From an uncultured Barnesiella sp. (GTDB lineage Bacteria; Bacteroidota; Bacteroidia; Bacteroidales; Barnesiellaceae): a stretch of DNA of 64,000 nucleotides. The position numbers and the translations under genes are program-made. A model generated the notes under the pieces. It had not been told where the DNA came from. It worked only from the letters and a program-made list of their open reading frames with translations, and did not search any database. Position 1 is the first letter of the stretch. Each line of letters opens with the position of its first letter. Below, one piece after another: positions 1-50,711 of the stretch. The stretch covers positions 1-64,000 of the forward strand of contig CALUFO010000013.1 in NCBI GenBank assembly GCA_944320015.1, read 5' to 3'.

Positions 1-57
1 CGGGGCGAGAGCCCCTCGGAGCCTCCCCTATATCGATACCCGACACGGGGGAGAAGT
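1..57. repeat. REP-like palindromic intergenic repeat (left edge, probably cut)
   Basis: Two nested hairpins are visible: GGGGC-GAGA-GCCCC near position 2, and a longer pair whose arms are CTCCCC (about 25-30) and GGGGGAG (about 49-55). The layout (CTCGG, then CTCCCCTATAT, a short loop, then GGGGAGAAG) matches the palindromes at 56.7-57.1 kb and 61.6-62.1 kb in the same window. It probably continues beyond the window. Function is unknown; such elements are often REP or transposase-derived repeats. Confidence 0.55.
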
Positions 58-128
58 GTAGATGCTACTCTTTTTCCTTACAAGGCAGGGGGATTGTCTA
101 TATTATATGCCTGATGGAGCAGGGGCGG

Positions 129-920
129 CTAAGGCTCGGGTTCTGCTTCATATAGTTTTACGCCCAGTTTTCGAATTTGGGTTTTAATATCCAACGGCAT
201 GTTGTTATCGGTGACGATGGCGCTTAGTTTGGAAATGGGAGCAATAAAGGCGAAACTTTTTTTATTGACTTTCGACGAGTCGAAAACGGCGATGGTTTCT
301 TTGGCCATGGTGATCATGGTTTGGTTGATGTTGGCCTCTTCGATGTTGGGAGTAGATACACCTCTTTCCAGATTGAAGCTATCGACTCCCAAGAATAGTT
401 TGTCGCAATAGAATATTTTCAAGGTGTTTTCGGCAATGGGCCCGACGATGGATAGGCTCGATTCCCTCAGGTGCCCACCCAGCAGGATTACGCTGAATCG
501 CTTGTATTTGCTGAGTTCTATGGCAATATCGATAGCGTTGGTAATGATTGTGAGCTGCTTGAACGCATGGAGGTTTTTGGCGATCTCCATCGTGGTGCTC
601 CCCGAGTCGAGGATAATTGTTTCGTTTTCTTGAATCAATGTGGCAGCTATACGCCCGATACCTCGTTTTTCTCGATAGTGAAACCTTTTTTTCTCGGTGG
701 TGGCTTGTTCCTCTACAATGTTGAGTTTGGGCAGCCGTATCGCGCCGCCTCTTACCCGAATGAGCAGATTCCTTTTTTCAAGCTCTTCCAAATCTTTTCT
801 GATGGTGACTTCCGATATGCTGAACATTTGGCTGAGGGAAGATACCAATATCTTGGGATTATTTTTCAGCAATTGTAAAATATGGGCCCGGCGTTCCTTG
901 GTTGAATAATATGTTTCCAT
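129..920 (-). CDS. DeoR/GlpR-family transcriptional regulator
   Basis: This 263-residue protein has the two-domain DeoR layout. An N-terminal winged helix-turn-helix covers about residues 8-60, with the family pattern SxxxISEVTIRKDLEELE followed by RVRGGAI. A C-terminal sugar-phosphate-sensing DeoRC domain covers about 75-250 and carries DSGSTT, ITNAIDIA, LLGGHLR, FLGVDS and FDSSKV. Length is normal for GlpR/AgaR/FruR relatives. It is transcribed away from the operon beginning at 1302, whose first four genes form a tagatose-type sugar-phosphate pathway. Local repression of that operon, relieved by a sugar phosphate, is therefore the natural guess (inference). It is the only regulator in the left half of the window; no HTCS, SusR or ECF-sigma/anti-sigma pair is visible. 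The effector cannot be read from sequence. Confidence 0.9.
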   Translation of the reverse strand: METYYSTKERRAHILQLLKNNPKILVSSLSQMFSISEVTIRKDLEELEKRNLLIRVRGGAIRLPKLNIVEEQATTEKKRFHYREKRGIGRIAATLIQENETIILDSGSTTMEIAKNLHAFKQLTIITNAIDIAIELSKYKRFSVILLGGHLRESSLSIVGPIAENTLKIFYCDKLFLGVDSFNLERGVSTPNIEEANINQTMITMAKETIAVFDSSKVNKKSFAFIAPISKLSAIVTDNNMPLDIKTQIRKLGVKLYEAEPEP

Positions 921-32441: not shown

Positions 32442-35245
32442 GATATTCGGTTTTTTGGAGTTGTGCATTTATCTACTAAGTAAACAATCGATACATAGGG
32501 TATCCCGGCGTTGGTAGTCAATCCTATTTCGCAGGTGCGGCTGTTGGAGTAACCTGTTTTTACGCCGGCTTTTTCCAATTGCGGTTTCAGTTTGCGCAAG
32601 GCGTAGGCGTTGACTTCGGGGTGTGTGAATCCCCGGTCTCCGGCAAACCCGCAACAACCCACCTCTTCGGGCACAATTACCCGGGTGGAGCAGAGACGTG
32701 CCAACTCGATGAGCATGTTGTCCAAGTTCATTTTCCGCATCGAGCAGGTGATATGTACGGCTATGGGTTCGTCGATGGGCGAGAACACCAATTTGTTTCG
32801 CAAAAAGGTATAGATGAACTCTACGGGTTCATACAACTTTACCCGGGTCATTACCTCGCGCATGCGGTGCAGGCAGGGGCTTTGGTCGCAGAGTACGGGG
32901 TATTTCCCGTTTTCGCTGGCTTGGTAGAGCGCCTCTTCGAGTTCGGCCGATTTGCGGTCGGCGATGTCCATCATGCCTTTGCTTTCCCAAATGGTTCCGC
33001 AACAAAGGTTTTTCATATTTTTGGGGAATATGACTTCATAGCTGGCTTTTTGCAGCAAGGCTACGGTTTTGTCGATGAGCGGCGTTTGCTCGGGCGAGTT
33101 TTTGGCCGTTCCCATGGTTTGGTTGATACAACTGGGGAAATAGACGACTTTCAACGGCTCTTCGTGTTGCTCTATTTTGTGAGGATAATAGGGCTTGGGC
33201 ATGGCGGCTGTCCATAGGGGGAATCCCAGTCGGTGCAGTCCTTTGCCTATGGCGCTCATCGATTGGCTGCCCAATAGTTTGTGAGCCGTGTCGGCCAAAT
33301 AGAGTATCGGCCGCAATCCTGCTTTGGTAGCCGCGAAATGGTTGGCGACGAAATCGCCGGTTTTATATCCGATGCTTCCGGCCGGTAAATTCTCTTGCCG
33401 TATGTCGTGGGTGAGGTCGCCCACGTTTATGCCCATAGGGCACGACATGGAGCAAAGCCCGTCGCCGGCGCAAGTGGCGTTGCCCAGATATTTGTATTGC
33501 CGGCGCAAGGTGTTCAATCGTTTTTGGCTTGCGGGGTCGGCGCAAGTTTTCAAGCGGGAAATTTCCCGATGAATGACGATGCGCTGGCGCGACGAAAGGG
33601 AAAAACCGCAGGTGAGGCAGTTCACTTCGCAGAACCCGCATTCGATACACCGGTCTACATGGGCGTTGGAAAGCGGCATGGGCTTGAAATTCTTGATATG
33701 GCAATGCGGGTCGTCGTTGAAGATAACGCCGGGATTGAGCAGTCCTTTGGGGTCGAACAGATCTTTGACCGCTTTCATAAACCCATAGGCTTTTTCGCCC
33801 CATTCATATTTGACAAAAGGAGCCATGTTGCGTCCGGTGCCGTGTTCGGCTTTCAACGAGCCGTCGTATTTGTCGACGACCAGCGTTTTCACCTCGTCCA
33901 TGAGTTTCTCATATCGGGCGATTTGTTCGGGAGTATCGAACGATTGGCTGATGATGAAGTGATAGTTCCCTTCCAACGCATGTCCATAGATGCAAGCGTC
34001 GAGATAGTTGTTTGTTTCCAACAAGGCTTGCAAATCGGCTGTGGCTTCGGGTAAGTCTTTAAGCGGGAAAGCCACGTCTTCGATCAGTACCGTGGTGCCC
34101 AACTGGCGGGTTCCCCCTACCGAGGGGAATATGCCCGAGCGGATAGCCCAATACTTCGAATATTCCTCGGGCTTGTCGGTGAAGTGTATGGGGACGGCCG
34201 TTGTGAACGGAGCCAAAATCTTTTTTATCTCTTCGATATTGGCCTGTAACTCTTCGGGCGAATCGGCTTTGGTTTCGGTGAGGACAGCCGTCAATCCTTC
34301 GCCGGTGGTGTCGTTGACCGAAGCCAGCGATTTTTTGTCGAGCAATTCGGCGCTGAATACGGGCCCCGACTTCATGGCGACTACGGCACGGCAGGCCTCT
34401 TTTATTTCAGAGAAGTAGAGCATGGCGCTGGCCGAGTAGGGGTAGTCGTGCTCGGTTTTCATCGTCACCTCCGAGAGGAAGGCGAGTGTGCCCTCCGAAC
34501 CTACCATCAGGTGGGCAATGATGTCGAAGGGGTCGTCATAGGCGATGAAGGGGAGCAGGTTTAGCCCGGTCACGTTTTTGATGGCATATTTCTTTGCGAT
34601 GCGTTCACGCAGTTCTTGGTCGCTCCGTATGGCGTCGCGGATTTCGACGATACGTTTCAAGAAAGGCGCATGGCTTTGTTCGAACGCTTTGCGGCTGGCG
34701 GGGTCGCCGGTGTCGAGCAGGGTTCCGTCGGCCAACACGATTCGCGCCGACAATAGCTCTTTGTCGCTGTTGGCGTGGGTGCCACAGTTCATACCCGAGG
34801 CGTTGTTCATGACAATACCTCCTACCATGGCCGATTTTACCGAGGCCGGGTCGGGGGCGAATTTGCGTCCGTAAGGTTTCAGTATTTCGTTTACCCTTGC
34901 CCCGATGATACCGGGTTGGAGGGTTATTTGGGTGTAATCGTCCGAGATGGAATAATTCTCCCAGTTCTTACCGGCGACAATAAGAATCGAGTCGCTTATG
35001 CTTTGCCCCGAGAGCGAAGTCCCGGCGGCTCTGAAAGTCACGGGCAGGTTGTACCGGTGAGCCAGAGCGAGAAGGCGTGATACTTCGTTTTCGTCTTTCG
35101 AGCGGATAACGATTTTCGGGATCAAGCGATAGAACCCGGCATCGGTGCCCCATGCCAGCAGGCGCAGCTCGTCGGTATATATCCGCTCTTTGGGGATAAA
35201 TTGGCGAGCCTCTTTCAGATAAGCGTTATAGGATAGTTTTTTCAT
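32438..35245 (-). CDS. FAD/Fe-S oxidoreductase, D-lactate dehydrogenase-like (GlcD-GlpC fusion)
   Basis: This 935-residue protein joins an FAD-binding PCMH domain (about 40-265, with TFRAAGTSLSGQS and NNASGMNCG), an FAD-oxidase C-terminal domain (about 275-510, with EHGTGRNMAPF at 467-477), two 4Fe-4S clusters (Cys533-Cys546 and Cys592-Cys602) and two CCG domains (CCGTIWESKG and VGCCGFAGDRGF), the likely FeS or heterodisulfide-reductase-like electron exit. This architecture is that of membrane-associated D-lactate or glycolate dehydrogenases feeding the quinone pool. The neighbouring MurQ releases D-lactate stoichiometrically, which makes D-lactate the logical substrate. The stop overlaps the next start by 4 bp. 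D-2-hydroxyglutarate or glycolate oxidation is the alternative. Confidence 0.85.
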   Translation of the reverse strand: MKKLSYNAYLKEARQFIPKERIYTDELRLLAWGTDAGFYRLIPKIVIRSKDENEVSRLLALAHRYNLPVTFRAAGTSLSGQSISDSILIVAGKNWENYSISDDYTQITLQPGIIGARVNEILKPYGRKFAPDPASVKSAMVGGIVMNNASGMNCGTHANSDKELLSARIVLADGTLLDTGDPASRKAFEQSHAPFLKRIVEIRDAIRSDQELRERIAKKYAIKNVTGLNLLPFIAYDDPFDIIAHLMVGSEGTLAFLSEVTMKTEHDYPYSASAMLYFSEIKEACRAVVAMKSGPVFSAELLDKKSLASVNDTTGEGLTAVLTETKADSPEELQANIEEIKKILAPFTTAVPIHFTDKPEEYSKYWAIRSGIFPSVGGTRQLGTTVLIEDVAFPLKDLPEATADLQALLETNNYLDACIYGHALEGNYHFIISQSFDTPEQIARYEKLMDEVKTLVVDKYDGSLKAEHGTGRNMAPFVKYEWGEKAYGFMKAVKDLFDPKGLLNPGVIFNDDPHCHIKNFKPMPLSNAHVDRCIECGFCEVNCLTCGFSLSSRQRIVIHREISRLKTCADPASQKRLNTLRRQYKYLGNATCAGDGLCSMSCPMGINVGDLTHDIRQENLPAGSIGYKTGDFVANHFAATKAGLRPILYLADTAHKLLGSQSMSAIGKGLHRLGFPLWTAAMPKPYYPHKIEQHEEPLKVVYFPSCINQTMGTAKNSPEQTPLIDKTVALLQKASYEVIFPKNMKNLCCGTIWESKGMMDIADRKSAELEEALYQASENGKYPVLCDQSPCLHRMREVMTRVKLYEPVEFIYTFLRNKLVFSPIDEPIAVHITCSMRKMNLDNMLIELARLCSTRVIVPEEVGCCGFAGDRGFTHPEVNAYALRKLKPQLEKAGVKTGYSNSRTCEIGLTTNAGIPYVSIVYLVDKCTTPKNRIS

Positions 35246-35267: not shown

Positions 35268-36506
35268 TTATGGATAGAGGTAATATTTACGCGAAAGCTC
35301 TTTGAAGGCTTCCACATCTTTATACCAATAGTCTTTGATATCGTCGAAACGGTAGTTTTTGGAGAATCGTTTCCGTATTTGGTCGCTGCCGCAAACTTTG
35401 TCGAACATATCGAACCGGGCTTTGTTCTCTTCGCTGAAAGCCGGTTTGTCGGGGTACATGGCGGCCAATTCTTGCAAGATGTAGAATTGCACTTCCGAAA
35501 GCCGTGCCGTTTTGTAATCCATGATGTGTACCTGTACTCCTTGCAGGTGTTCGCCTTTGCCGAAGGCGTAGAAGGGTTTGAGGTGCATCGGGCGGAATTT
35601 GAGTCCCGGCAAGTTCAAGGCGTTCATGCGGGCGGTCAACTTTTCGGCGTCGATCCATTGGGCGGCAAACATTTGGAACGGAATGGTGTATCCTACGCCT
35701 ATCGAGAGATAGGGCAATTCTCCCACAATACCCGACAGGGGATAGAAATAGGCCGAGTGGGGGTGCGGAATGTGCGGTGAGGAGGGTATCCATTGCAATC
35801 CGGTTTGAGTATAGTCCATGTTGCGTTTCCAGTGTTTCATGGGGACTACCGTGAGTTTGCAGTTTTTGGCGAGCATATTCTCTCCGATGAGCATTTGCGC
35901 CAGTTCGCCGCAAGTGAGCCCATAGACATATGGAATCTTGAATTGGCTCACAAACGAGGTGTAACCGTCTTCGACCAAGTTGCCTTCTACCTTTTCCCCG
36001 CCGATAGGATTGGGTCGGTCGAGAACGACAAACTCTATCCCGTTTTCGGCTGCGGCTTCCATAGCGACTCCCATCGTGCTGATATAGGTAAACGAGCGGC
36101 AGCCTATGTCTTGAATGTCATAGACAAGCACGTCGATGTCTTTGAGCATTTCGGGGGTGGGTTTCCGGGTTTTCCCATAGAGGGAGTAGACGGGGAGCCC
36201 CGTCGAGGGGTCGGTCGAGTTGTCTACCTTATCGCCGGCGTGTACATCGCCTCGGACACCATGTTCGGGGCCGTAGAGGGCGACCAGATTGACATTGGGC
36301 GCCTCGAACAGAATATCGATAGTCGATTTCAGGGAATTGTCCACGCCGGTAGGATTGGTAATAAGACCTACTCTTTTACCTTCCAATATTTTGAAATTAT
36401 CGGCTTTCAGAACTTCGATTCCTGTCATTATTTTTTGTGCGTTTAACGATACGGCAAACGTTGCAATAAAGCACAAAATTATATACTTTTTCAATTTCAT
36501 AGACAT
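35268..36506 (-). CDS. namZ: DUF1343 protein, putative exo-beta-N-acetylmuramidase (NamZ-like)
   Basis: This 412-residue protein has a signal peptide (about 1-23, ending SLNAQ). The DUF1343 core shows GLITNPTGVD (about 47-56), ALYGPEHGVRGD (about 75-86, with a conserved Glu80), VYDIQDIGCRSFTYISTM and FVVLDRPNPIGG. Characterised members (NamZ, family GH171) release MurNAc from the non-reducing end of peptide-free peptidoglycan fragments. An exported enzyme of this type next to an AmpG-like permease and the MurNAc kinase/MurQ genes fits a salvage pathway. It starts 10 bp after the AmpG-like stop and ends 22 bp before the oxidoreductase gene. Activity is inferred from family. Confidence 0.85.
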   Translation of the reverse strand: MSMKLKKYIILCFIATFAVSLNAQKIMTGIEVLKADNFKILEGKRVGLITNPTGVDNSLKSTIDILFEAPNVNLVALYGPEHGVRGDVHAGDKVDNSTDPSTGLPVYSLYGKTRKPTPEMLKDIDVLVYDIQDIGCRSFTYISTMGVAMEAAAENGIEFVVLDRPNPIGGEKVEGNLVEDGYTSFVSQFKIPYVYGLTCGELAQMLIGENMLAKNCKLTVVPMKHWKRNMDYTQTGLQWIPSSPHIPHPHSAYFYPLSGIVGELPYLSIGVGYTIPFQMFAAQWIDAEKLTARMNALNLPGLKFRPMHLKPFYAFGKGEHLQGVQVHIMDYKTARLSEVQFYILQELAAMYPDKPAFSEENKARFDMFDKVCGSDQIRKRFSKNYRFDDIKDYWYKDVEAFKELSRKYYLYP

Positions 36507-36516
36507 TTCTTTTGTG

Positions 36517-38382
36517 TTATTTTGTTTCTATTTCTTTTTCTTCATTCTCTTTTTTCCCGTAATTGGGGTCTATTTTGATAAAGGCACATACGGCGATGGT
36601 GGCGGCGCAGCAAATCATTACCCAGTAGAAGAAATGTTTGTAGCCGATGAGCTCTTGCAGCCAGCCGGCGGCCATACCCGGCAACATCATGCCCAAAGCC
36701 ATAAAGGCCGTACAGATAGCATAGTGGGCGGTTTTGTGCTCGCCGTCGGAGAAGTAGATGAGGTAGAGCATGTAGGCCGTGAAGCCAAATCCGTAACCAA
36801 ACTGTTCGATGAAGACACAGAGGTTGATGATAAAGAAGCTCTCGGGCTGATAGTAACTGAGGTAAACAAACGTAATACAGGTGAGCGAGATGCTCCAAGC
36901 CATAGGCCAAAGCCATTTTTTAAGCCCGCCTTTGGCCGCTACGATTCCACCTATGATTCCACCTATCGTCAATCCCAGAATACCTATCGTGCCATATACC
37001 AATCCCACTTGTCCCGTGGTGAGGCCTAAGCCTCCCAATTCCCGGGGATCGAGCAAGAAGGGGTTGATGAGTTTCACCAGTTGGGCTTCGGGCAGGCGGT
37101 AGAGCAACATGAAGAGGACGGCCACCCATACTTGTTTCTTTTGGAAGAAGGTGACGAAGGTGGCGAAGAACTCTTTGAATATGTTCGAGGCCGTGGCTTC
37201 ACATACCGCCTTGTCCGATTTTGGTTTGGGTAATATGTATTTGTGATACAGGCAAATGGCTATGAAGAACCCGGCCAGTACAAAGAAGGTAATCGACCAA
37301 GCCAGCGAGATGTTTCCCGATGTCGATTCGAACGAGGCCGACGAGGCCTCTTTCAGTTTCGGGTCTACCTGTATGGTGATGTAGGCGGGTTTGTTCCAGT
37401 TTTCGGACGTAAATTCAAATCGGTCGCCTTGCGTGAGGAATATACTTTGGTCGCCTGTTTTGTGTACGGTGTTGAGCACTACCTTTTCACCGGGTTCGGG
37501 TTGTTGCGAGAGGCAAACTTTTATCACTCCGATATTGCCGGTGAGTTGGTGTTGGGTCCTTTCCCGGTCTTCGCCGAAGGTGTCTTTGATGAATTGCTCG
37601 AATTTGCTGAGCTGTTTGTCGGCGGTCGCCTCGGGGCTGCTTTGGGCGGAGGCGGTTTCGGGAACGGCGAAGCCGTTGGCGATGTTCTGCTGTTTAACCC
37701 ATGCGTTTATCGAGTCGACTTGGGCGGGGTTGGCCGTGGTGCCGATTTCGAGTACCGAAGGCGAGGCCACGAAGTGCATCTCGTCGTTGTTGCTGTCGGT
37801 CACATAGTCGGTCGAGGGAAGCGTGATTTCACTGGCATACTGCGGGCCCGCTTTCACTTCGAGCGAGAGGGGGGTAAGTCCCGTGTTCGATTCGAGCAGT
37901 CCGGCGAGAATCACCAGTAAACCTTGTCCTGCGATGGTAGCCACACGGTAGAAAGTGCTACGGATACCCACATACATGGCTTGGTCGTGGGTGTCGAGAG
38001 CCAGCATATAGAATCCGTCGGCGGCTATATCGTGTGTGGCCGAGCTGAATCCTACCAGCCAGAAGATGGCCAGCGTTATTTGGAAAAAGTGCGGGGCTGG
38101 TATCGTAAAGGCAATACCGGCCAGACCGGCTCCGACCAACATCTGCATGGAGACTACCCACCAACGTTTGGTTTTTAGCAGGTCGATAAAGGGGCTCCAG
38201 AAGGGTTTGATAACCCACGGCAGATAGAGCCAACTGGTGTAAAGGGCTATATCGGTGTTCGATATTCCCAGCCGTTTATACATGATGACCGAGATAGTCA
38301 TCACGGCTACATAGGGCAATCCCTGCGCGAAATAAAGCGTGGGAATCCAAGCCCAAGGCGATCTCTTTTTTTGCGAATTCAT
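36517..38382 (-). CDS. AmpG-like MFS permease with large periplasmic insertion
   Basis: This 621-residue MFS protein has AmpG/AT-1-like landmarks: WIPTLYFAQGLPYVAV at the N-terminus, ATHDIAADGFYMLAL near 115-129, and ample membrane segments in both halves. Between the membrane span ending near residue 165 and the next beginning near 358 is a soluble stretch of about 190 residues, rich in Ser, Thr and acidic residues, which should face the periplasm. E. coli AmpG (about 490 residues) lacks it. AmpG proteins import GlcNAc-anhydroMurNAc (muro)peptides. The flanking NamZ-like and SpoIID-like genes support import of murein fragments. The added domain may be a binding domain or link to a partner (inference). 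Confidence 0.82.
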   Translation of the reverse strand: MNSQKKRSPWAWIPTLYFAQGLPYVAVMTISVIMYKRLGISNTDIALYTSWLYLPWVIKPFWSPFIDLLKTKRWWVVSMQMLVGAGLAGIAFTIPAPHFFQITLAIFWLVGFSSATHDIAADGFYMLALDTHDQAMYVGIRSTFYRVATIAGQGLLVILAGLLESNTGLTPLSLEVKAGPQYASEITLPSTDYVTDSNNDEMHFVASPSVLEIGTTANPAQVDSINAWVKQQNIANGFAVPETASAQSSPEATADKQLSKFEQFIKDTFGEDRERTQHQLTGNIGVIKVCLSQQPEPGEKVVLNTVHKTGDQSIFLTQGDRFEFTSENWNKPAYITIQVDPKLKEASSASFESTSGNISLAWSITFFVLAGFFIAICLYHKYILPKPKSDKAVCEATASNIFKEFFATFVTFFQKKQVWVAVLFMLLYRLPEAQLVKLINPFLLDPRELGGLGLTTGQVGLVYGTIGILGLTIGGIIGGIVAAKGGLKKWLWPMAWSISLTCITFVYLSYYQPESFFIINLCVFIEQFGYGFGFTAYMLYLIYFSDGEHKTAHYAICTAFMALGMMLPGMAAGWLQELIGYKHFFYWVMICCAATIAVCAFIKIDPNYGKKENEEKEIETK

Positions 38383-38392
38383 GGTTTATATT

Positions 38393-39697
38393 TTAATATA
38401 GTTTTTCTATGGTTGCTCCTACAAAATAGTGCAGGAGGATTTCCCGGTAGGAGAATCCTTGTTCTCCCATGACGGCGGCGCCTATCTGGCATAGCCCCAC
38501 GCCGTGACCCCAACCGGCGCCCCGCAGGACAAACCGTTGCGGTATGCCGTCGATGAGATCTTGGTGCTCTACGACAAAAGCCGAACTGTACAAATGCGAA
38601 GGCGACAGGGTGCGGCGTATTTCCAGTTCCTTGCCGATGGTGAGGGTTTGCCGGGTGCCTATGATTTGCAGCCGTATCAACCGTCCTGAACGCCCCCGCT
38701 CGATAGGTTTCAGTTCGACAATTTCTCCAAAATCGATGCCCGACTTTTCCCGGATAAGAGCCGCTAATTCCTGTTGGGTATAGCTCACTGTCCAGCGGTA
38801 AAAATCGGTAGTTTCTTGGTCGTAGTTGTTGAGTACTTGCGACAGGATATTTTTGTCGGTGGTATTGCAGAAAGCCTCGGGCGAGGCGTATATCCAAGCG
38901 CGGGCTTCCTCTTCGTTTCTCAAATCGGGGAAATCGCTTTCTTCCCGGCTGTCGCGCAACGGTATTAAATAGGGGTGGTTGATGTTTTCCCAGCAAGTGG
39001 AAAATTCCTCGACTACACCGCCGCAGCATTTCGAGAACCGGGCGTCGCAAATCTTTTTGTCATAGGAGAGTATTTCGCCCCGTGTCGCATCTATGGCGCG
39101 CGCCACGATTTCGGTGCTGGCTCGGGTAATGCCTTGATAACGTTGACAATGGTCGTCGGCACACACATCGAAATGGTCGTGGTCTTCACGGTCGTACCAA
39201 CGAATGAGTTCTTGGTCGGTGCGTATGAGCGACTCGGGTTTCGCTCCTTTCAACGCTTTGTTCTTTTGTATTTGAGCCAGCAGCCAGCTGCGGGAGATGA
39301 CAGCGTGCGATTTGAGTAGTTCGAGCGAGGCGGTGGCGCTCATCTCCGAGGATATAACGCTCAACAGATACTCTTCGATACTCAATTCGTTGATGGCGGT
39401 GATGCGGTCGCCCTCGACAATCAGTTTCAGGGCGCCCTTGAACACTTGGTCTTCCTTCCGTTCCCAATGGAACTTTACGCCTATGGTCACGCCTTTGAGG
39501 CAAAACGAGTTTTCCTCGCATTGCGGGACGAAGAGAAGGGAATCGTATTTGTGTCCTTTCCAACAGATGAGCCCCTGTTCGAGGTGTGCCTCCTGTTCTC
39601 CTTCGACCGGTTGCCCGTCGTGTAGATAGATTCCCTTGAAAGCGAAATCTATCTTTTCTTCCGACATGATCCCTACGGTTACCGATGGCTCTTTCAT
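38393..39697 (-). CDS. SpoIID/LytB-domain protein (putative lytic transglycosylase), no signal peptide
   Basis: This 434-residue protein has a SpoIID domain in the middle (about 105-330): ELSIEEYLLSVISSEMSATASLELLKSHAVISRSWLL contains the conserved Ser-Glu-Met with the expected catalytic Glu. CADDHCQRYQG and FSKCCGGVVEEFSTCWEN resemble metal- or substrate-binding loops, and GWGHGVGLCQIGA lies near the C-terminus. SpoIID enzymes cleave peptide-free glycan strands. The N-terminus (MKEPSVTVGIMSEEK) is hydrophilic with no signal peptide or membrane anchor, so a cytoplasmic location is suggested, which is odd for a murein enzyme. It is tightly packed, 6 bp after the DUF4922 stop and 10 bp before the AmpG-like start. 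Confidence 0.82.
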   Translation of the reverse strand: MKEPSVTVGIMSEEKIDFAFKGIYLHDGQPVEGEQEAHLEQGLICWKGHKYDSLLFVPQCEENSFCLKGVTIGVKFHWERKEDQVFKGALKLIVEGDRITAINELSIEEYLLSVISSEMSATASLELLKSHAVISRSWLLAQIQKNKALKGAKPESLIRTDQELIRWYDREDHDHFDVCADDHCQRYQGITRASTEIVARAIDATRGEILSYDKKICDARFSKCCGGVVEEFSTCWENINHPYLIPLRDSREESDFPDLRNEEEARAWIYASPEAFCNTTDKNILSQVLNNYDQETTDFYRWTVSYTQQELAALIREKSGIDFGEIVELKPIERGRSGRLIRLQIIGTRQTLTIGKELEIRRTLSPSHLYSSAFVVEHQDLIDGIPQRFVLRGAGWGHGVGLCQIGAAVMGEQGFSYREILLHYFVGATIEKLY

Positions 39698-39703
39698 AGG
39701 TGG

Positions 39704-40633
39704 TTATTTAAGTTTTTCTATGATTTGGTACATCTTTTCCCGCCCGAGGCAGACTTCCGATAGAATCTTTTCGAGGTGAGCGGCTTCGATTTTTTCGAAA
39801 TCTTTTTCGAGGGGAGTGATGAATACGCCTCCCATGTCGACCGAAGCCGGGCTGAGCAGGATATTCTCGTCGCCTTCGGCGAAGTAGCACGAGGGGCGAT
39901 GTTGGGCTCTCGGGAAGATGCAGGCGAGCCATTTTCCATCTTCATACCAAGTCAGCAGGTTTATCATAGGCTCGGTCTCGTCTTCTTTCCGGTCGAGTGC
40001 GTGGTAGAGCGACCCGAACAGTTCCTCGGCGTCGTCGGCTTTTTCGGCCTCGATTAGGAAAAATGGGCATATATAGTCCTCTACTTGGCTCAGACGAGCC
40101 GATGCTTCGCTGCGTATGGGTATGTAGCGGCATCGCTTTATCGCCTGTTCGAGCGGCAGAAATCCTTTGTTGCCGGCTTGGAAATGGGCGTGGTCGGGTG
40201 CCGAAGCCCCGCATTTAGGGCCATTATAAAACAGCACATAATCGTGGGCGGCCTGTGCCAGTCGCAACATGTCGCCGAACCGCTTCTCGATGAGTTGCGG
40301 CACATGCTCGTTCACCGGGATTGTGAAGTGCTCGGGGAAAATAGGGAAGGGGTTGATGAGCCATGTGTAGTCGCCGGCCGGGAGCCCTTCTTGCACGTCG
40401 GGACGGTTGTCGGCACACAGGAAGCATTTGCGCTCTTTCAACGATTTTGTGTCTACTTTGGCCGCCGACGAGACGATACGAGCCGGGTTGAACTGTACCT
40501 TTACGGTACAGTCGCCCAGTATTATCTCTTTTACTCGCACCGATTCCAGCGCTTTATAATTGTTACGGGCCGACTCCCATACGGCGAGTTGACCGGACAA
40601 CAGTTGTTTGGCTTGTTCCGATGTTACACTCAT
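39704..40633 (-). CDS. DUF4922 HIT-like nucleotidyl phosphorylase/transferase
   Basis: This 309-residue soluble protein has a CFLC motif (70-73) and, at about 147-153, DHAHFQA, the HxHxQ signature of the HIT/GalT superfamily (His148, His150, Gln152). PFPIFPEHFTIPVNEH upstream is also typical of GDP-galactose/GDP-glucose phosphorylase-like members. These use a covalent nucleotidyl-His intermediate to phosphorylate or transfer nucleotides on sugar nucleotides. Its job in a murein-salvage operon is unclear; handling of sugar-1-phosphates or activated sugars is an option. It is followed by the SpoIID-like gene after 6 bp and preceded by a GT2 gene after 5 bp. Confidence 0.75.
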   Translation of the reverse strand: MSVTSEQAKQLLSGQLAVWESARNNYKALESVRVKEIILGDCTVKVQFNPARIVSSAAKVDTKSLKERKCFLCADNRPDVQEGLPAGDYTWLINPFPIFPEHFTIPVNEHVPQLIEKRFGDMLRLAQAAHDYVLFYNGPKCGASAPDHAHFQAGNKGFLPLEQAIKRCRYIPIRSEASARLSQVEDYICPFFLIEAEKADDAEELFGSLYHALDRKEDETEPMINLLTWYEDGKWLACIFPRAQHRPSCYFAEGDENILLSPASVDMGGVFITPLEKDFEKIEAAHLEKILSEVCLGREKMYQIIEKLK

Positions 40634-40638
40634 AGGAA

Positions 40639-42096
40639 TTATTTTTTATTCATGGCCACACGGGCTTGCAATTCCCATGTGCGAATGCGGTCTTTGTATA
40701 AATTGTTGGCGTTCATCTTTTCGATACTCAGCGAAGCATCGGAGTTGTCGTCCCAGCGACGGCACAGATATACGACATCGTAGATACGTCCTATTTGATA
40801 GTGGCGAGAGATGTTCAATCCCAAAGCATAGTCTTCGCCATAGCTTGTGTTGGGCACTTTCACTTGCCGCAGCAGTGGCGTGTAGAAGGCTCGGGGCGCG
40901 CCCAGTCCGTTGATGCGGAGGGCGTTGTTGCGCCCGTTCTCGGGGGTCCACTCTTTGTGGTCGATGATGCCCGGGGCAATCATGTTCATGTTGAAATCGG
41001 TCATCATGTAGGTGCCTACCACCATACCGCAATTTTGTTCATAGAAGGCGTTGACCATGGTTTGCAACGTGTTTTCGCTGCTATATACGTCGTCGCTGTC
41101 GAGTTGTACGGCAAATTTACCGCATTGGGGGTGATGCACGCCCATGTTCCAGCAGCCACCTATTCCCAAATCGTTCCGCTCGGGGATAATGTGGATTACC
41201 CGCTTGTCGTGGGCAAATTTATCGATGGCTTCGGTAGTTCCGTCGGTCGAATGGTTGTCGATGACGATAAGGTTGAACTTGAAATCGGTTTTTTGTTTTA
41301 GAACCGATTCGATGGCGTCGGCGATGGTGCGTACCCGATTGCGCACGGGGATAATGACCGATGCTTCGTATTCGAAGTCGCCTTTGTCGAATTCTATTTT
41401 TTCGAACTTCGGTTCGAGGTATCCGCCAATCTCTTTCAAGTGTTCGGTACAGGCGGCTTCCATTTCGATTTGTACGCCTCGGTTTTTGGGGTCTACATAG
41501 TCGAATATCTTTTCTCCGCTTTTGCGGGTGTCGTTTTCAACCTCTGAATAGAGATATTCGTTCATGTGTACCAATGATGTTTTTTGTGATAATTTCAGAC
41601 GAAGGTCATAAAGTCCGGCAAATTGGTAATCGGCTTTCATGCGCGCGGCGGCGTCTTTGAGCGCGGTGGCGTTGAAAAGCAGCAGCGAGCCGAAGTTGAA
41701 GTCGTCACGCAGACTACCGTATTGGTAGTCGATGACCGGTGCTTTTTGTTGTGCGCCGTCGACAACATGGTAGGAGTCGGCATATACCATGCCGGCTTGT
41801 GAGTCTTCGGCGATATGAACCATGCGTTCGAGGGCGAAGTATCCTATTTCGAGCGTTGTGTATTTGGTGTAGAGCAGTGTGAAGTCGGCATTGCTATGAG
41901 CGGCCAGCAAGTGCATGGTGGCCGATGCGTTGAGGGCAGAGATATGCAGCATTTGACACCCGTCGATTGGGGTATCGTTTTTTTCTGTGGAGAGAAGATA
42001 GATATTTTTTACATACTCACAGGCTTGAAGCCCTTTGAGGGTTTCTGCGACTTGTTCCTTGCTCGAAAAAGGAATGAAACAGTTGATTGTTTGCAT
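40639..42096 (-). CDS. Family 2 glycosyltransferase with N-terminal degenerate GT-A-like half
   Basis: In this 485-residue cytoplasmic protein the catalytic GT2 domain lies in the second half: [20 protein letters not shown] (about 245-264), [10 protein letters not shown] (about 278-287), and the DxD-type QLDSDDVY (331-338). The first 240 residues also start with a GT-A-like beta strand ([19 protein letters not shown]) and contain [10 protein letters not shown], but lack a clear acidic active-site pair, so they look like a degenerate tandem copy. There is no membrane segment. A biosynthetic transferase inside a salvage operon is unexpected. It may decorate surface glycans made from recycled sugar. 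It starts 17 bp after the metallophosphoesterase-PQQ gene. Confidence 0.8.
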
Positions 42097-43970: not shown

Positions 43971-46964
43971 TTATGGTGTGGTTTGATGGTTATCGAACGC
44001 AGATAGAATGGCTCGCATGAGGGCATTCCGCTGAGTCTCGGTTTTAATGGTTTCGAATGGATACCCCAAGACGCAGGTGTCGTAGCGCTCTCCCCGGTAG
44101 AAAATGCCGGCGCCGATATTGTTCTCGGTGTATCGTTGGATCATATAGCTTCCTTTTCCAAAAGGCTCTATCCCGTCGGGCGATTCGACGGCGTAGCACT
44201 TTTCGTTGAGACTATTGTGAAACTCTATGGGCAGGGCGGCGAACGAGTCGAACGGCGAATCGACCGGTTTTACAGTTCCGTTTATCGAGGCTTGTCCTGT
44301 GCGCCAAGTGTAGTGCAGTACCTCGTTGGCAAATTGCTTGCCGAGTTCGTCCGGTGTGCCGTTGTCCCACAGGTCGGTGGCGACATAGGCTCCCGACACA
44401 AACAACTTTCTCCCGTTGTCGCAATAATCGGTGAGGACTTTTTGCAGGGCTTCGGGGAAGGCCTTGAATGAAGCCTCGGTGTCATTGTTGCCCATATACA
44501 CTTGTTTTTCTTTCCCGAGAATCAAGTCGGTTATCCGGTAGTCATTCAGCGATACCAACTTCTCTGTGACAGCTTCGTCGCTGCTCGATAGGAACGAGTA
44601 GCCGGCCTCGGCGATAGCTTGTCCGTGTATGTAAGGGTAGTCGAAGGTGTTACCGGCGATAACGCATGTCTCGTAATTGGAGCGGCTGGCTCCGAATCCC
44701 GGGTTATCGTCGTCGAGCCACGGAATTTCTCGGCGGAATTCATATTGCTCGCCGATGAAACTGATGTCGCGGAGGTAGGGCACCCCGAAATCTTTGCGGG
44801 TGTTGAACCCGGCGGTGATGGTGTCTATCTCGAAACTGTCGGGGGCGCTGATTCGGTCGAACCCGTTGACTATCATCACAACGCCTTTCTCGTGTGAGGC
44901 TCGGCATAGCGATAGTATTTCAGAGGGGAAACTCTCGCCGCCTCGGTTCACGGCTGTGACTTTGAAACTGTAAATCGAGTCGGGTTGAATGCGGGTGGAG
45001 AATGTGGTGTCGGAGATGAGAGTCCCGCTGTCGAACGCCCCGTCGTTGATACGGGTATAGACGATGTATTTCTCGGGCGAGGCGGTCGGTTCGAGGGTGT
45101 CTTCGACAGGACGCCAAGTCAGTTTTATCTCGTTTGCTCCGGCAAATTCGGTGCGCAAATGGCTCACGGGCAAGGGCTGCACCACATAGTCATAGTCGTT
45201 TTGTTCGGCTATGAATTTCAATATCCCTTTGTAGACGGCCCGGGAAACCACAAACCGGAATCGGGGGTCGAGCCCGTAGCGCATATCGGCGAAGTTTTGG
45301 TGTGAAAGCAGTTCGAGCAGCATGGTGGGCACTTCGGGGGTGCGGGCTTCGAAATAAGATTTGTTCCACATGCCCCGGCGGCTCCATTCGGGCTCGTAAG
45401 TTCGGCGAATGTCGTCGGTAATCTGTGTGAGAACCATGTCGGTAAGGTATCGCGATACTTGCCGGGATACGTTTTTCCCGTAGGTTTTCCGTTCTTTCCC
45501 GGTGAAATAGATACCCAGACTTCCTATTATCGAATCGTTTTTGGTCGTTCCCGCGTCGGAGTGGAAAGCAAAGGCGAGGTCTATGGGTATATTCAGGCCG
45601 GTGCTGTCGGGGAGTATTTGCGAGCCTCCGGCCAAGTAGTTTACCCAAGCGCCTCGGCACTTGTAATCGTCGGTATAGTCGTTTTCTCCCCGGCTGGGTG
45701 AATAGATTTTTTCGGGGAATCCAGCCCATTGCAGCCAATAGCGGGCAGCCTCGGTGAAGCGGGGGTATCCACTGGTCGTATAGGAGTAGTTTATGGGGAG
45801 GCTTTCGGGGGTGTCGGCAATGAGCGAGTCGTTTACCCGGCGGGCAATGTTGCCATATCCCCCACCTATCTTCACGGCGTCGGCAGTGATGATTTTCCCT
45901 TTTTCGTGGGAGAGGTTGCTCAATTCTATCCGGGCTTCTTGTCCGGCGTCGAAAGCGAAATGGCCTAAATAGATCCAAGTGCCTCCTCCCATCGTTTGGT
46001 TTACTTTGAATTGTGATTTCCCGCCTTTGTGAAATACGGTATATAGAGCCTCTTCCGTGCTGTTCTTGAAAGAGCGGTAGGCTATGTAGACGGCGTATTC
46101 ACCGCTTTGGGGTATGGGGGCCGACCAACGGGCGGTGATGGCGCGGGCAGGATCGGTCGTTGTGGTGGTTTGCCGGTAGGTCCCTCCTTCAAACGGATTT
46201 TGCGATTGAGTATATACCGGTGAGGTGTGGGCAAACCCGTGTGCTCCGCTTTTCCAGTTGTAGTGCTTGTTCTCAGTCTCGGCGTATGTGGCGGCGTTGT
46301 CGTTGTCGGCAATAAGTTCGTGCCGATTGATGTCGCGTTCGCGGGGAGAGAAAATGTAGGCTCCGGCATTCTCGAGCATAGGGGTGAGGAAAGGCATGAC
46401 GAAACTTTGGGTGTAGAGGTCTTCCACGGTTTCGAAGATGCGCGCGCGTTGCCATTCCCAGCGGTTGAGCGATTGCTCGAAGTAGTATCCGTGGCTTTGC
46501 CACAGGGCGATATGCCGGTTGAGCAGTCCTTTTGTAGGTGCGTAGAGCCGATCGACGGGAGAGACGACGGGGCGGTTGCAGCGGGTGACAAACTTCGCCT
46601 GTTTGTCGGCGAAAGGTATCAGTTGACTTATCTCATATCCCCCGGCGCGAATGGTGAGTTTTTTCTTTTTCAGATTGTCGGGGAGGAAGGTGCGAACGGA
46701 GTCGTACATTTCCTTGACAAGTTCTTCCCGGAAGGGAAGGTAGGAGAACTCGTCGTTCATCTCGACAATGAGGCGATTGCCTTTCCCGACGAAGATTCTA
46801 TTTAGCTTTATCTCTCCGATAGTCAGGTATTTGGGCTTGAAAGAGGCGAGAGCCTGTTCTACCGAGCTTTCCACCGAAGCGGAGCCTTGTGAGTATCCGT
46901 TGACGAATACCGACAAGAGAATCACAAAGAGTAGAAAGTATCGTTTGTCTTTCATGTTTTTCAA
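43971..46964 (-). CDS. Exported amidase_3-like protein split by golvesin-type domain, with FN3
   Basis: This 997-residue protein has a signal peptide (about 1-25). The N-terminal region (45-130) precedes an amidase-like fold interrupted by a beta-sandwich. The first part, about 148-215, has SHGYYF (His158) and TVEDLY (Glu181). Residues about 236-370 form a golvesin/xanthan-lyase-C-like insert (ITARWSAPIPQSGEYAVYIAY and WIYLGHFAFDAGQEARIELSN). The amidase resumes with AFHSDAG (His468) and TMLLELLSHQN (Glu551). A fibronectin type III domain (about 600-690) and a long C-terminal GATase-like beta/alpha domain follow. The His-Glu-His-Glu pattern is that of zinc N-acetylmuramoyl-L-alanine amidases. 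It heads the 12-gene operon and no T9SS tag is present. Database labels such as xanthan lyase for such proteins are probably misleading. Confidence 0.75.
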   Translation of the reverse strand: MKNMKDKRYFLLFVILLSVFVNGYSQGSASVESSVEQALASFKPKYLTIGEIKLNRIFVGKGNRLIVEMNDEFSYLPFREELVKEMYDSVRTFLPDNLKKKKLTIRAGGYEISQLIPFADKQAKFVTRCNRPVVSPVDRLYAPTKGLLNRHIALWQSHGYYFEQSLNRWEWQRARIFETVEDLYTQSFVMPFLTPMLENAGAYIFSPRERDINRHELIADNDNAATYAETENKHYNWKSGAHGFAHTSPVYTQSQNPFEGGTYRQTTTTTDPARAITARWSAPIPQSGEYAVYIAYRSFKNSTEEALYTVFHKGGKSQFKVNQTMGGGTWIYLGHFAFDAGQEARIELSNLSHEKGKIITADAVKIGGGYGNIARRVNDSLIADTPESLPINYSYTTSGYPRFTEAARYWLQWAGFPEKIYSPSRGENDYTDDYKCRGAWVNYLAGGSQILPDSTGLNIPIDLAFAFHSDAGTTKNDSIIGSLGIYFTGKERKTYGKNVSRQVSRYLTDMVLTQITDDIRRTYEPEWSRRGMWNKSYFEARTPEVPTMLLELLSHQNFADMRYGLDPRFRFVVSRAVYKGILKFIAEQNDYDYVVQPLPVSHLRTEFAGANEIKLTWRPVEDTLEPTASPEKYIVYTRINDGAFDSGTLISDTTFSTRIQPDSIYSFKVTAVNRGGESFPSEILSLCRASHEKGVVMIVNGFDRISAPDSFEIDTITAGFNTRKDFGVPYLRDISFIGEQYEFRREIPWLDDDNPGFGASRSNYETCVIAGNTFDYPYIHGQAIAEAGYSFLSSSDEAVTEKLVSLNDYRITDLILGKEKQVYMGNNDTEASFKAFPEALQKVLTDYCDNGRKLFVSGAYVATDLWDNGTPDELGKQFANEVLHYTWRTGQASINGTVKPVDSPFDSFAALPIEFHNSLNEKCYAVESPDGIEPFGKGSYMIQRYTENNIGAGIFYRGERYDTCVLGYPFETIKTETQRNALMRAILSAFDNHQTTP

Positions 46965-47211: not shown

Positions 47212-48051
47212 TTATCCATAAATCGAGTGGTACTCGATGAGTCCCTGCATCGGGCTTTTCTCGGTTTTCTCAATGTGCAGGCCGAAGTCGTTGGCGACCA
47301 AGTTGAGAATGTCGGCATAAGTATAGGCGAGATTTCCCATGAAATAGATCGGGTAGGACTTGTAGTCATACTGGCTGATATTTCGTTGGAAAAATTTCAT
47401 CAACTCCTCATAAACCAGATTGAACGCATATTTATTGTCCAAATGGTCTTTGAGGAAATAGGAGAACGTAGAAAGCGAGCGATTGGGGAATGGGTGGTTG
47501 TAAATGGCGCTCATAATCTCGTCGGGCGTGATTTTGAACTTCTCATAGAAGGCGTCGCTTAGATCTTTCGGAGTGAGGTTTTTCAGATAGTCGCTTAAAA
47601 AGCGCCGGCCCATGGCCGCCCCACTGCCTTCGTCGCCCAAGATATAACCGCCTGAGCGCACGTTTTTAATGATTCGTTCCCCGTCATAGAGACAAGAGTT
47701 TGACCCCGTGCCCAAGATGCAGGCGATTCCCGCTTTGTCGATGAGCATGCCCCGGGCGGCTGCCAGCAAATCGCTTTCGGCCGAGATAGGGGTTTTGAAT
47801 TGGGCGACCAAAGAGGCTTCGAGGATATTCTTTTTATCTAAGTTCGCACAGCCCGCTCCATAGAAATAAACTCGTTCCCACCGTTTTTTGAAGAAGGTTT
47901 CCGGCAAATTGAGCCTAATGCTATGGCTGATTTCTCGGCGTGTTTGGAAAAACGGATTTATACCTTCGGTAAAACTTCTTTCCATGACGTTTTTCCCATC
48001 GACCAACACCCACTCGGTCGTCGTAGATCCACTTTCTGCTATGACTTTCAT
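47212..48051 (-). CDS. Diverged BadF/BadG-family sugar kinase paralogue
   Basis: This 279-residue protein is collinear with the kinase at 30433-31272: FYGAGCA, ESDLLAAARG, GTGSNSCLYDG, GGYILGDEGSGAAMG, PFPNRSLS and a C-terminal SPMQGLIEYHS. The phosphate-1 motif differs: it reads AESGSTTTEW instead of ADSGSTKTDW, so the metal-coordinating Asp6 is Glu6. This was checked at the nucleotide level (GAA codon). It is monocistronic, with a good promoter (48163-48194) and a terminator (47149-47185). It may phosphorylate a different amino sugar (GlcNAc is a natural candidate, to complement a MurNAc kinase) or act as a sensor. Position next to the operon implies shared physiology. Confidence 0.8.
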   Translation of the reverse strand: MKVIAESGSTTTEWVLVDGKNVMERSFTEGINPFFQTRREISHSIRLNLPETFFKKRWERVYFYGAGCANLDKKNILEASLVAQFKTPISAESDLLAAARGMLIDKAGIACILGTGSNSCLYDGERIIKNVRSGGYILGDEGSGAAMGRRFLSDYLKNLTPKDLSDAFYEKFKITPDEIMSAIYNHPFPNRSLSTFSYFLKDHLDNKYAFNLVYEELMKFFQRNISQYDYKSYPIYFMGNLAYTYADILNLVANDFGLHIEKTEKSPMQGLIEYHSIYG

Positions 48052-48326: not shown

Positions 48327-50711
48327 TTAATGAGTGATCAATACCGGATAGCAGAAGTCGTTTCCTTCGGTTTTTACTTTCAAGAGATAGGTTCCCGACG
48401 GAATATCCGAGACTTCGATAGCCGCGTCGGGGCTGGTGGCGATGCAATATCCCGACAGGTTGTAGAGTGCCATTCCACTAATGGGCGTTTCGGATTGAAC
48501 GTTCAATATGTCGGATACCGGGTTCGGATAGACCTTTATGCCCTTCGAGGTTGCTATGGTGGGGATACCCGATGAGGTGTACACCAGCATGTTGTCCAAG
48601 AAGAAGCTGCCCGAGTCGGAGAAGAAGGGCGATTTGCGCGCTACCTTGATTGCGCTCACCCGGTAGCTTTTCCCGTCGGGGAGTTGATCGAGGCGAACCT
48701 CACGGAACTGCCAACCTCTGAAATCGATTGTTGTCAACAGCACTTCTTGGGTGTCGTTGTCCGAGGTCAGTTGCAGCCATATCTCGTCACAAGCCAAGTC
48801 GCCATAGATGTGCATGCCTATGGTTTGGGTGTTGTCGACTGTCGTTGAGCCTGCAAATGTGCCGCCTGTCGTGTACAGGGCATACGCTTCGTTGGCGTTG
48901 AACGTGTATGTGAAGTTGTATGCGGCGCTGTCGAAGAGCTTTTGCGAGGTCGAACGGGCGGCTTTGGCGGTGGTGGTTCCCACGCTTTGGGTGGCGTCGA
49001 ACGTAATCATGTCGGCTGTCTCGAAAGTCTCGGCGGCCACTTCGGTGCGGCGCACGTCGCCGGCGGTGAAGTTAATGACAATGGGATCTACGACGGGAAG
49101 ACTGTTTACATCGTGCAGCGAGGCGTCGATTCTCAGTTGGTAATTGGCTCCTTGAACCAAATCAGATGCCGTGGAGAAGTAATAGTTGCCATAGTTCCCG
49201 TCCAGTTGGTTGTATTTGGCCGAGCGCAGGTTTATGCTTACTTTGTTGCCGTCGCTGTCGTAGAGGGTGATCAAGTCACGAATGTTTACCGCGTCGAGCA
49301 CATTGTCGAAACGGACTTCGAGAGTGGGTTTGGGATAGTGGAGTACCGACCCTTCGGAGGGGCTGGCCGCCAACAGTTTCAATTGGTTGCGTCCTTGTGT
49401 GAGGAAGGTGAAGGAGAAGTCCTCTTCCATGCTCATGTCGCCCGGGTGTTTGGCGCTCTTGTCGAGTGTCACGGTGTAGAGTGTGGCCACTTCGTAGGGG
49501 CGGTCGGGGGTAAATACCATGCGGTATTGCGAGTCCTCGAAGGTAATCGTTCCCTCTACCGGCGGGTCGATCGAGAAGGCTTTTTCTACCGATTCCACGT
49601 CCATATCCCAATTGAAGTTGAGCACGATAGGCGTGGTGCAGTTGATACTGTCGGTTTCGTTTTCCATTATGGGGCTGTACGAAGTTACTTCCGGCGGGGT
49701 GCTTCTCACGCGGTCCATGGCGATGTTGGCGTAGCTTATCGTGTTGGCGGTCACTGTTACGTCGACCGTGCGGTCGTAATGGTCTTCGGCCACGATTTTA
49801 AGCTGATAGTTGCCCGGGGCGAGGTCGCGGAACATATACACGCCGTTGAACAACTCGTCGGTCGTGTAGGTGATGTTGTCGGGCAACAGGGTCACGGTGG
49901 CGCCGCACAGCGGGACTTGTTTGTCACGGCCGTGTTGCACATACGATTCGGTGCGGGTCATGCGGCTGTCATAAACGACGCCGGCGATATTGCCCTTTGT
50001 GAACCCGTCGGTGTTGAAGTATTCCATCACGGCTTTGGTGAAGTGCCAAGCCTCGATGTACTTGAAGTCCATGTTGAGCAGGCGGTAGGTCTCGGGAATG
50101 TAGTCGTGGTAAGAGCCTTCCGAGAGGAATCCCGTGACGGTGAGGCCTCGCAATACGCCCAGCCCGGACGTACCCCATTGGGGATAGAAATCCCAATCGC
50201 CCACCACATATTCACTGGTTTGGGTCCAGTAGGTCACTTCGTTTTCGATGAGGTGTTTGAAAAGGATTTTGGCCACCACCTTATCCTCGGGTTTTGCCGG
50301 ATTTTCGGTATATCCCTTGAAGAGCATCATGGGGAAGTTCACCCGGTTGCTCGTGCCGGTGGCGTTGCTGTGTATCGAGAAGAAGAGGTCGGCTCCGAAC
50401 TCGTTGGCTTCGCGGCTGATGACATGGAGATCAAGGTCGTCTTCCGTGCGGTTCAATACGCGCGACATGGCCACTTCGGCGCCTTGCTCTTCGAGCAGGT
50501 CGCGCAGCATCAGGCCTTTGTGCAGGTTCGACGATGATTCCCAAAATCCCAGTGTGTCGCCCTGTGCGAAGGGGGCGACGGCCACGTTGCGGTCGTCCGA
50601 GTCATACCCGCCGTGGCCGGGGTTGATATAGATTTTCAGTCCGGTCATGTCTTTGGCCTGCATGCCCAGACAGCCCAGCAGGGCTATGATGACAATATAA
50701 ATACGTTTCAT
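48327..50711 (-). CDS. T9SS-secreted N-acetylmuramoyl-L-alanine amidase
   Basis: This 794-residue protein has a signal peptide (about 1-19). The amidase_3 catalytic domain (about 25-235) has a full zinc and catalytic set: NPGHGG (His33), FWESSSN (Glu58), FSIHSN (His114) and FLSEGSYHD (Glu198). Then come a carboxypeptidase-regulatory-like domain (about 240-335), Ig-like domains of the Big_5 type (about 350-580), a CBM-like segment, and a C-terminal sorting domain (about 715-794: VYPNPVSDILNVQ, SGTYLLKVKTEG). The T9SS tag sends it to the cell surface or outside, so it should strip stem peptides from external peptidoglycan rather than remodel its own wall. It is last in a four-gene minus operon. 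Confidence 0.88.
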   Translation of the reverse strand: MKRIYIVIIALLGCLGMQAKDMTGLKIYINPGHGGYDSDDRNVAVAPFAQGDTLGFWESSSNLHKGLMLRDLLEEQGAEVAMSRVLNRTEDDLDLHVISREANEFGADLFFSIHSNATGTSNRVNFPMMLFKGYTENPAKPEDKVVAKILFKHLIENEVTYWTQTSEYVVGDWDFYPQWGTSGLGVLRGLTVTGFLSEGSYHDYIPETYRLLNMDFKYIEAWHFTKAVMEYFNTDGFTKGNIAGVVYDSRMTRTESYVQHGRDKQVPLCGATVTLLPDNITYTTDELFNGVYMFRDLAPGNYQLKIVAEDHYDRTVDVTVTANTISYANIAMDRVRSTPPEVTSYSPIMENETDSINCTTPIVLNFNWDMDVESVEKAFSIDPPVEGTITFEDSQYRMVFTPDRPYEVATLYTVTLDKSAKHPGDMSMEEDFSFTFLTQGRNQLKLLAASPSEGSVLHYPKPTLEVRFDNVLDAVNIRDLITLYDSDGNKVSINLRSAKYNQLDGNYGNYYFSTASDLVQGANYQLRIDASLHDVNSLPVVDPIVINFTAGDVRRTEVAAETFETADMITFDATQSVGTTTAKAARSTSQKLFDSAAYNFTYTFNANEAYALYTTGGTFAGSTTVDNTQTIGMHIYGDLACDEIWLQLTSDNDTQEVLLTTIDFRGWQFREVRLDQLPDGKSYRVSAIKVARKSPFFSDSGSFFLDNMLVYTSSGIPTIATSKGIKVYPNPVSDILNVQSETPISGMALYNLSGYCIATSPDAAIEVSDIPSGTYLLKVKTEGNDFCYPVLITH

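Follow-up and report, generated by a model that had tools for sequence, protein, structure and literature searches.

The coupling of an amidase to an enzyme that requires denuded glycan is known from the SpoIIP/SpoIID pair and from the AmiE/NamZ recycling pathway of Bacillus subtilis, in which SpoIID and NamZ, respectively, are the enzymes in need of such glycan; more generally, LytB/SpoIID proteins and NamZ act on peptide-free glycan. SpoIIP and AmiE are Firmicutes amidases of other types than the one described here, and we know of no inserted domain in either. Among the Bacteroidales, Tannerella forsythia is unable to make MurNAc and lives on the cell walls of other bacteria. Its genes Tanf_08345-08385 lie in the order xanthane lyase, gtf, gtf, lytB, ampG, ybbC, murT, murK and murQ (PMC5388701), with K1058 directly upstream of the operon (PMC10465942). 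A strong periplasmic amidase activity has been inferred in this organism because its extracts and an ampG mutant release only disaccharides, and in the literature consulted no gene is assigned to it (PMC7670621).

The window analyzed here, a 64,000-nucleotide stretch from an uncultured Barnesiella sp., carries on its minus strand a real open reading frame of 997 amino acids (43971-46964), in which the ATG at 46955, three codons downstream of the mechanically assigned TTG start at 46964, is the likelier start and for which 74 distinct full-length relatives were available. Tanf_08345, as the first gene of the ampG-murTKQ operon, stands at the corresponding point of a matching gene order and is its counterpart by position, with no function assigned to it in the literature consulted beyond the xanthane lyase label (PMC5388701). 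On the evidence presented below, the 997-residue protein is quite likely to be a zinc-dependent N-acetylmuramoyl-L-alanine amidase with the Amidase_3 fold that is secreted, most probably into the periplasm, and whose catalytic domain is interrupted by a second, foreign domain.

The protein (all coordinates that follow are on the minus strand) begins with a hydrophobic segment recognizable in its sequence (residues 4-25, MKDKRYFLLFVILLSVFVNGYS; 46890-46955), which by inspection would be a Sec signal peptide devoid of a lipobox Cys. It is followed by a poorly conserved alpha/beta region (residues 27-130; 46575-46886), delimited by the secondary structure of the model and by conservation. The amidase domain comes in two halves, both supported by structure matches and profile alignment. 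The first (residues 145-225; 46290-46532) comprises, according to the model, a strand with an SHG motif, the helix bearing E181 and a strand ending in PRERD; the second spans residues 425-592 (45189-45692). The insert that separates them covers approximately residues 212-429 (45678-46331) and contains a golvesin-type beta-sandwich (residues 236-371; 45852-46259) and a strongly conserved stretch, SGYPRFTEAARYWLQWAG. Behind the catalytic domain lie a fibronectin type III domain (residues 599-684; 44913-45170; PF00041, E 1e-6) and a C-terminal alpha/beta domain (residues 692-997; 43974-44891), poorly modelled at residues 704-772, that resembles GATase1/ThuA folds and a GH42 domain (Z 11-14). This GATase1/ThuA-like domain is also found together with an fn3-like part in other large Bacteroidota proteins.

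Conventional family searches reveal this arrangement only in part. In the Pfam scan, Golvesin_C (PF25275) is detected at residues 259-366 with an E-value of 4e-28 (98.4 bits against a cut-off of 31.6) and is matched in 32 of 32 family members. Amidase_3 (PF01520) is perceived at the sequence level only behind the insert, at residues 462-582, with 13.8 bits against a 27-bit cut-off; matches to it occur in 31 of the 32 members, with a best E-value of 6e-8, and one relative (G013) clears the cut-off with 30.4 bits. The N-terminal half alone yielded no match to Pfam or to Bacteroidota amidases. Both the sub-cut-off score of the single protein and the silence of its N-terminal half count against the amidase assignment, and because of that score we regard the family as a divergent, interrupted branch working like Amidase_3, and not as a curated member of PF01520.

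Since Pfam exposes nothing of the interrupted domain but the insert and a faintly scoring portion of its second half, it is easily explained how such proteins come to bear lyase names, and the suspicion voiced in the first-pass annotation, that this architecture would generate misleading family labels, is realized in the naming of the T. forsythia positional counterpart as a xanthane lyase (PMC5388701). Taking that label and the Golvesin_C match to the Paenibacillus xanthan lyase 6f2p at face value, one could suppose that the protein is a lyase of xanthan or of another polysaccharide. We consider this extremely improbable: the match is confined to the C-terminal domain of 6f2p (residues 901-1038 of 1040), neither the Pfam scan nor the structure comparison found a polysaccharide lyase domain, and the rest of the core matches the amidase fold. 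In 6f2p the Golvesin_C domain is terminal and follows the lyase, whereas in the 997-residue protein it is inserted in the amidase.

The AlphaFold2 model of residues 27-600, built from an alignment of 32 relatives (protein number equals model number plus 26), has a mean pLDDT of 88.2 and a pTM of 0.90, with a weak segment directly before E181 (pLDDT below 50 at protein residues 176-180). Twenty solved amidases superpose on it with Z-scores of 14.6-19.6 over 163-192 residues (rmsd 2.1-2.9, identity 14-24%), and the aligned ranges run from approximately model residue 100-124 to 560-569, that is, across the insert. The best matches are 4rn7 (Z 19.6, 183 of 186 residues) and Rv3717 4m6i (Z 18.8, 178 of 185), and CwlD (Z 18.6), AmiA (Z 17.3), CwlV (Z 17.1, 176 of 179 residues) and AmiC (Z 16.4) are also among them. 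The flanks therefore form one domain, contrary to the separate flanks that the first-pass annotation had named as a refutation, and the interruption of an amidase fold by a golvesin-type domain, for which the first-pass annotation had proposed superposition on AmiC and CwlV as a check, is borne out. The insert, in turn, superposes on the last domain of 6f2p (residues 901-1038) with Z 18.2, rmsd 2.2 over 135 residues and 27% identity, the matching part being model residues 185-342 (protein 211-368). The Pfam and structural boundaries together indicate that the golvesin-like domain had been correctly placed at residues 236-370. The beta-sandwich also resembles the carbohydrate-binding module folds CBM35, CBM6 and CBM4 (Z about 10), which hints at carbohydrate binding. 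We regard the fold and its interrupted architecture as practically certain. A literature search for golvesin domains associated with amidases returned no match.

To align the two halves with canonical enzymes, a profile of residues 145-225 joined to residues 425-592, from which the insert was left out in silico (74 relatives), was compared with 31 Bacteroidota amidases without regard to the candidate site residues. Because hhalign aligned only the last 75 columns in its default mode and gave a poor result when forced to be global (score 14.7, probability 2%), a local alignment with the posterior cut-off turned off (-mact 0) was used, controlled by 60 column shuffles. The joined halves scored 38.65, as compared to 15.3 +/- 2.6 (maximum 24.1) for the shuffles, or 9 SD above them. 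The pairs obtained are H158-H11, E181-E25, R208-R53 and D211-D56 in the first half and R437-R64, N442-N69, H468-H80, D470-N82 and E551-E197 in the second, which place the insert behind the TRxxD strand (D211-D56) and ahead of the RxxAN helix (R437-R64). All 31 Bacteroidota amidases carry the same residue at each of the canonical positions 11, 25, 80 and 197. It might be argued that the amidase similarity is spurious and that the flanks are separate domains, as the weak single-sequence scores would allow, but a single domain superposes across the insert and the joined profile scores far from its shuffles, which makes this hardly credible.

The residues singled out in the first-pass annotation as amidase site candidates, H158 (46491-46493) and E181 (46422-46424) before the insert and H468 (45561-45563) and E551 (45312-45314) after it, are present at the positions claimed, pair with the canonical H, E, H and E, and are each conserved in 74 of 74 distinct relatives. 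H158, E181 and H468 would thus be zinc ligands 1, 2 and 3, and E551 the catalytic base. The structural matches provide a second view of two of them. In Rv3717 (4lq6) the site residues are His11, Glu46, His101 and Glu176 (PMC3852659), and, provided that its ends contain no gaps, the aligned range 123..563 to 2..214 takes His11 to model residue 132 (H158) and Glu176 to model residue 525 (E551). His65 of AmiA (PMC10268282) likewise falls on H158. This anchoring uses aligned ranges, not coordinates, and is informative for H158 and E551. Moreover, D470, two residues past H468, is invariant in 74 of 74 relatives and is the counterpart of Asp135 of AmiA, in which His133 and Asp135 are the zinc-site residues compared here with H468 and D470 (PMC10268282). 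As judged from alignment and conservation, the predicted four-residue zinc and catalytic site is very probably correct.

Such invariance also bears on the idea that the protein might be catalytically inactive and serve as an amidase-like scaffold for glycan or peptide binding, the real amidase being a T9SS-type neighbor encoded two genes upstream (48327-50711). The existence of that second amidase gene and the several binding-type domains of the 997-residue protein would accord with such a role, but the four site residues and the additional zinc-site Asp D470 are all invariant in 74 of 74 relatives, which is unexpected for a dead enzyme, and we deem the proposal very unlikely.

Compared with the Amidase_3 amidases CwlV (1jwq), Rv3717 (4lq6), AmiA (8c2o), CwlD (7rag) and 4rn7, the 997-residue protein shares the fold over most of the domain and the H/E/H/E positions, but it differs from them in that some 215 residues with a beta-sandwich separate ligands 2 and 3, in its extra N-terminal, fn3 and C-terminal domains and in a very low sequence identity. 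AmiA, AmiB and AmiC of E. coli are likewise Amidase_3 enzymes whose catalytic domain contains an additional element (residues 151-194 in AmiA; PMC10268282). The AmiA insert, however, is helical, follows ligand 3 (His133) and blocks the site, whereas in the 997-residue protein a whole beta-sandwich precedes ligand 3, and no blocking helix like that of AmiA was identified in it.

Members of the interrupted, or split, amidase family occur at 34 loci of named genomes. Most of these genomes belong to the Bacteroidales (Parabacteroides, Prevotella/Hoylesella, Muribaculaceae and Alistipes), and one is a Calditrichia MAG; the best-matching loci are 72-84% identical, in keeping with a genome close to Barnesiella. 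When 247 genomes from across the phylum were searched with a profile of the C-terminal half, the family was recovered in 24, the majority from other classes. In every intact copy examined the order is first half, golvesin domain and second half, with the insert of about 215 residues kept, and the same profile revealed no insert-free member in the 247 genomes: family members score at least 296 bits on their own profile, after which nothing follows, and there are no intermediates to canonical amidases. The conserved order and the lack of an uninterrupted intermediate suggest that, as far as this sample goes, the insertion is old and fixed. Several copies (L123/L127 in G375, L119/L128 in G368 and G219:C1) appear split or frameshifted, for which decay and assembly error are both possible explanations.

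The gene lies in a large MurNAc/peptidoglycan salvage cluster on the minus strand (28911-56721) that also includes two T9SS phosphodiester glycosidases (NAGPA). Directly upstream is a sugar kinase gene (47212-48051), a counterpart of T. forsythia K1058 (386 bits to K1058, 8oqk, against 219 to MurK). Downstream, on the same strand, follow a metallophosphoesterase with a PQQ propeller, a GT2 glycosyltransferase, a DUF4922 protein, LytB/SpoIID (38393-39697; PF08486, E 1e-24, and SpoIID structures), an AmpG-type MFS permease (36517-38382; PF07690 and position) and the exo-N-acetylmuramidase NamZ (35268-36506; PF07075, E 4e-88, and PF20732), and thereafter an FAD-linked oxidase, a gene in the MurT position, the MurNAc kinase MurK (30433-31272; 370 bits to T. 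forsythia MurK 8oqw, with MurK matching better than K1058) and a MurQ-like SIS etherase (29592-30419; SIS family matches). K1058 and MurK counterparts, both matched by sequence, thus flank the gene as they do in T. forsythia, and the Barnesiella cluster differs from the T. forsythia operon in the extra metallophosphoesterase and FAD oxidase genes in between. The same order, with the split-amidase gene in first place, is retained in relatives that share a family with the Parabacteroides locus L041, and the succession split amidase-GT2-DUF4922-SpoIID-AmpG-NamZ-MurT position-MurK-MurQ recurs, whole or in part, in many genomes.

How firmly this association holds depends on the lineage: in some it is strong, in others it is missing. 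One or more salvage genes lie nearby at 14 of 34, 12 of 20 and 4 of 11 loci in three sampled sets, many of whose loci are incomplete, and where flanking DNA is available, salvage neighbors appear at no more than roughly half of the loci; a Barnesiella orthologue that is 84% identical (L035) has no salvage gene within 6 kb, although such genes are present next to more distant relatives. The patchiness of these neighbors and the second amidase gene in the cluster are points against the amidase assignment. An alternative holds that the same interrupted zinc-hydrolase fold cleaves some other amide bond, for instance a different peptide or amino-sugar amide of cell-wall fragments, instead of MurNAc-L-Ala. 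The family is indeed far from canonical amidases (14-24% identity in the structure matches), stands apart at 296 bits or more on its own profile with no intermediates in 247 genomes, and possesses conserved motifs of its own, DYxDDY and SHQN. Nevertheless, all superposing structures among the matches listed are Amidase_3-type amidases and the neighboring genes are specific to MurNAc and glycan processing, and we consider a different substrate bond unlikely. With this gene context in support, a putative zinc-dependent activity on MurNAc-L-Ala appears likely.

In the mechanism that we propose for a MurNAc-L-Ala amidase, a water molecule activated by zinc would attack the MurNAc-L-Ala amide while the beta-sandwich beside the cleft would hold or select the glycan. 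Stem peptides would be removed first, leaving a peptide-free glycan to be cut by the co-encoded LytB/SpoIID and NamZ, and the resulting sugars would be imported by AmpG and MurT and processed by MurK and MurQ. The idea that the insert takes part in glycan binding, suggested by its fold class, has in our estimation about an even chance of being right. Similarly balanced is the broader proposal that the split amidases hidden under the xanthan lyase name supply the periplasmic amidase with which Bacteroidales, among them the MurNAc auxotroph T. forsythia, begin to scavenge peptidoglycan, with the inserted beta-sandwich shaping the active site for glycan-attached stem peptides. If the protein is indeed a split amidase, the annotation of the family would be corrected, both within Bacteroidales and in further classes of the phylum, the unassigned periplasmic amidase activity of T. 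forsythia would gain a testable candidate gene, and Amidase_3 would include an enzyme in which an entire foreign domain separates the metal ligands, at a site other than that of the regulatory insert of AmiA, AmiB and AmiC. MurNAc auxotrophy of the Barnesiella genome itself through loss of MurA was also considered and rejected, as murA is present.

Several other genes of the cluster deserve mention. The second amidase, two genes upstream (48327-50711, minus strand), carries Big_5 and a T9SS sorting tail in addition to Amidase_3; the last part of the Amidase_3 domain, missed by Pfam, reads GFLSEGSYHDY and is loosely like LLELLSHQNFADM of the 997-residue protein. This enzyme may be extracellular while the 997-residue protein is periplasmic. 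The DUF4922 protein, weakly like nucleotide phosphorylases, and the GT2 glycosyltransferase (39704-42096, minus strand) very often accompany the split-amidase gene. The gene in the MurT position (31269-32468, minus strand) encodes a 399-residue protein without a Pfam match, and its place in the order is conserved in other genomes. Finally, the FAD-linked oxidase between NamZ and MurK (32438-35245, minus strand) contains Fe-S domains, occupies the same place in three further loci (L133, L137 and L148) and could use the D-lactate released by MurQ.
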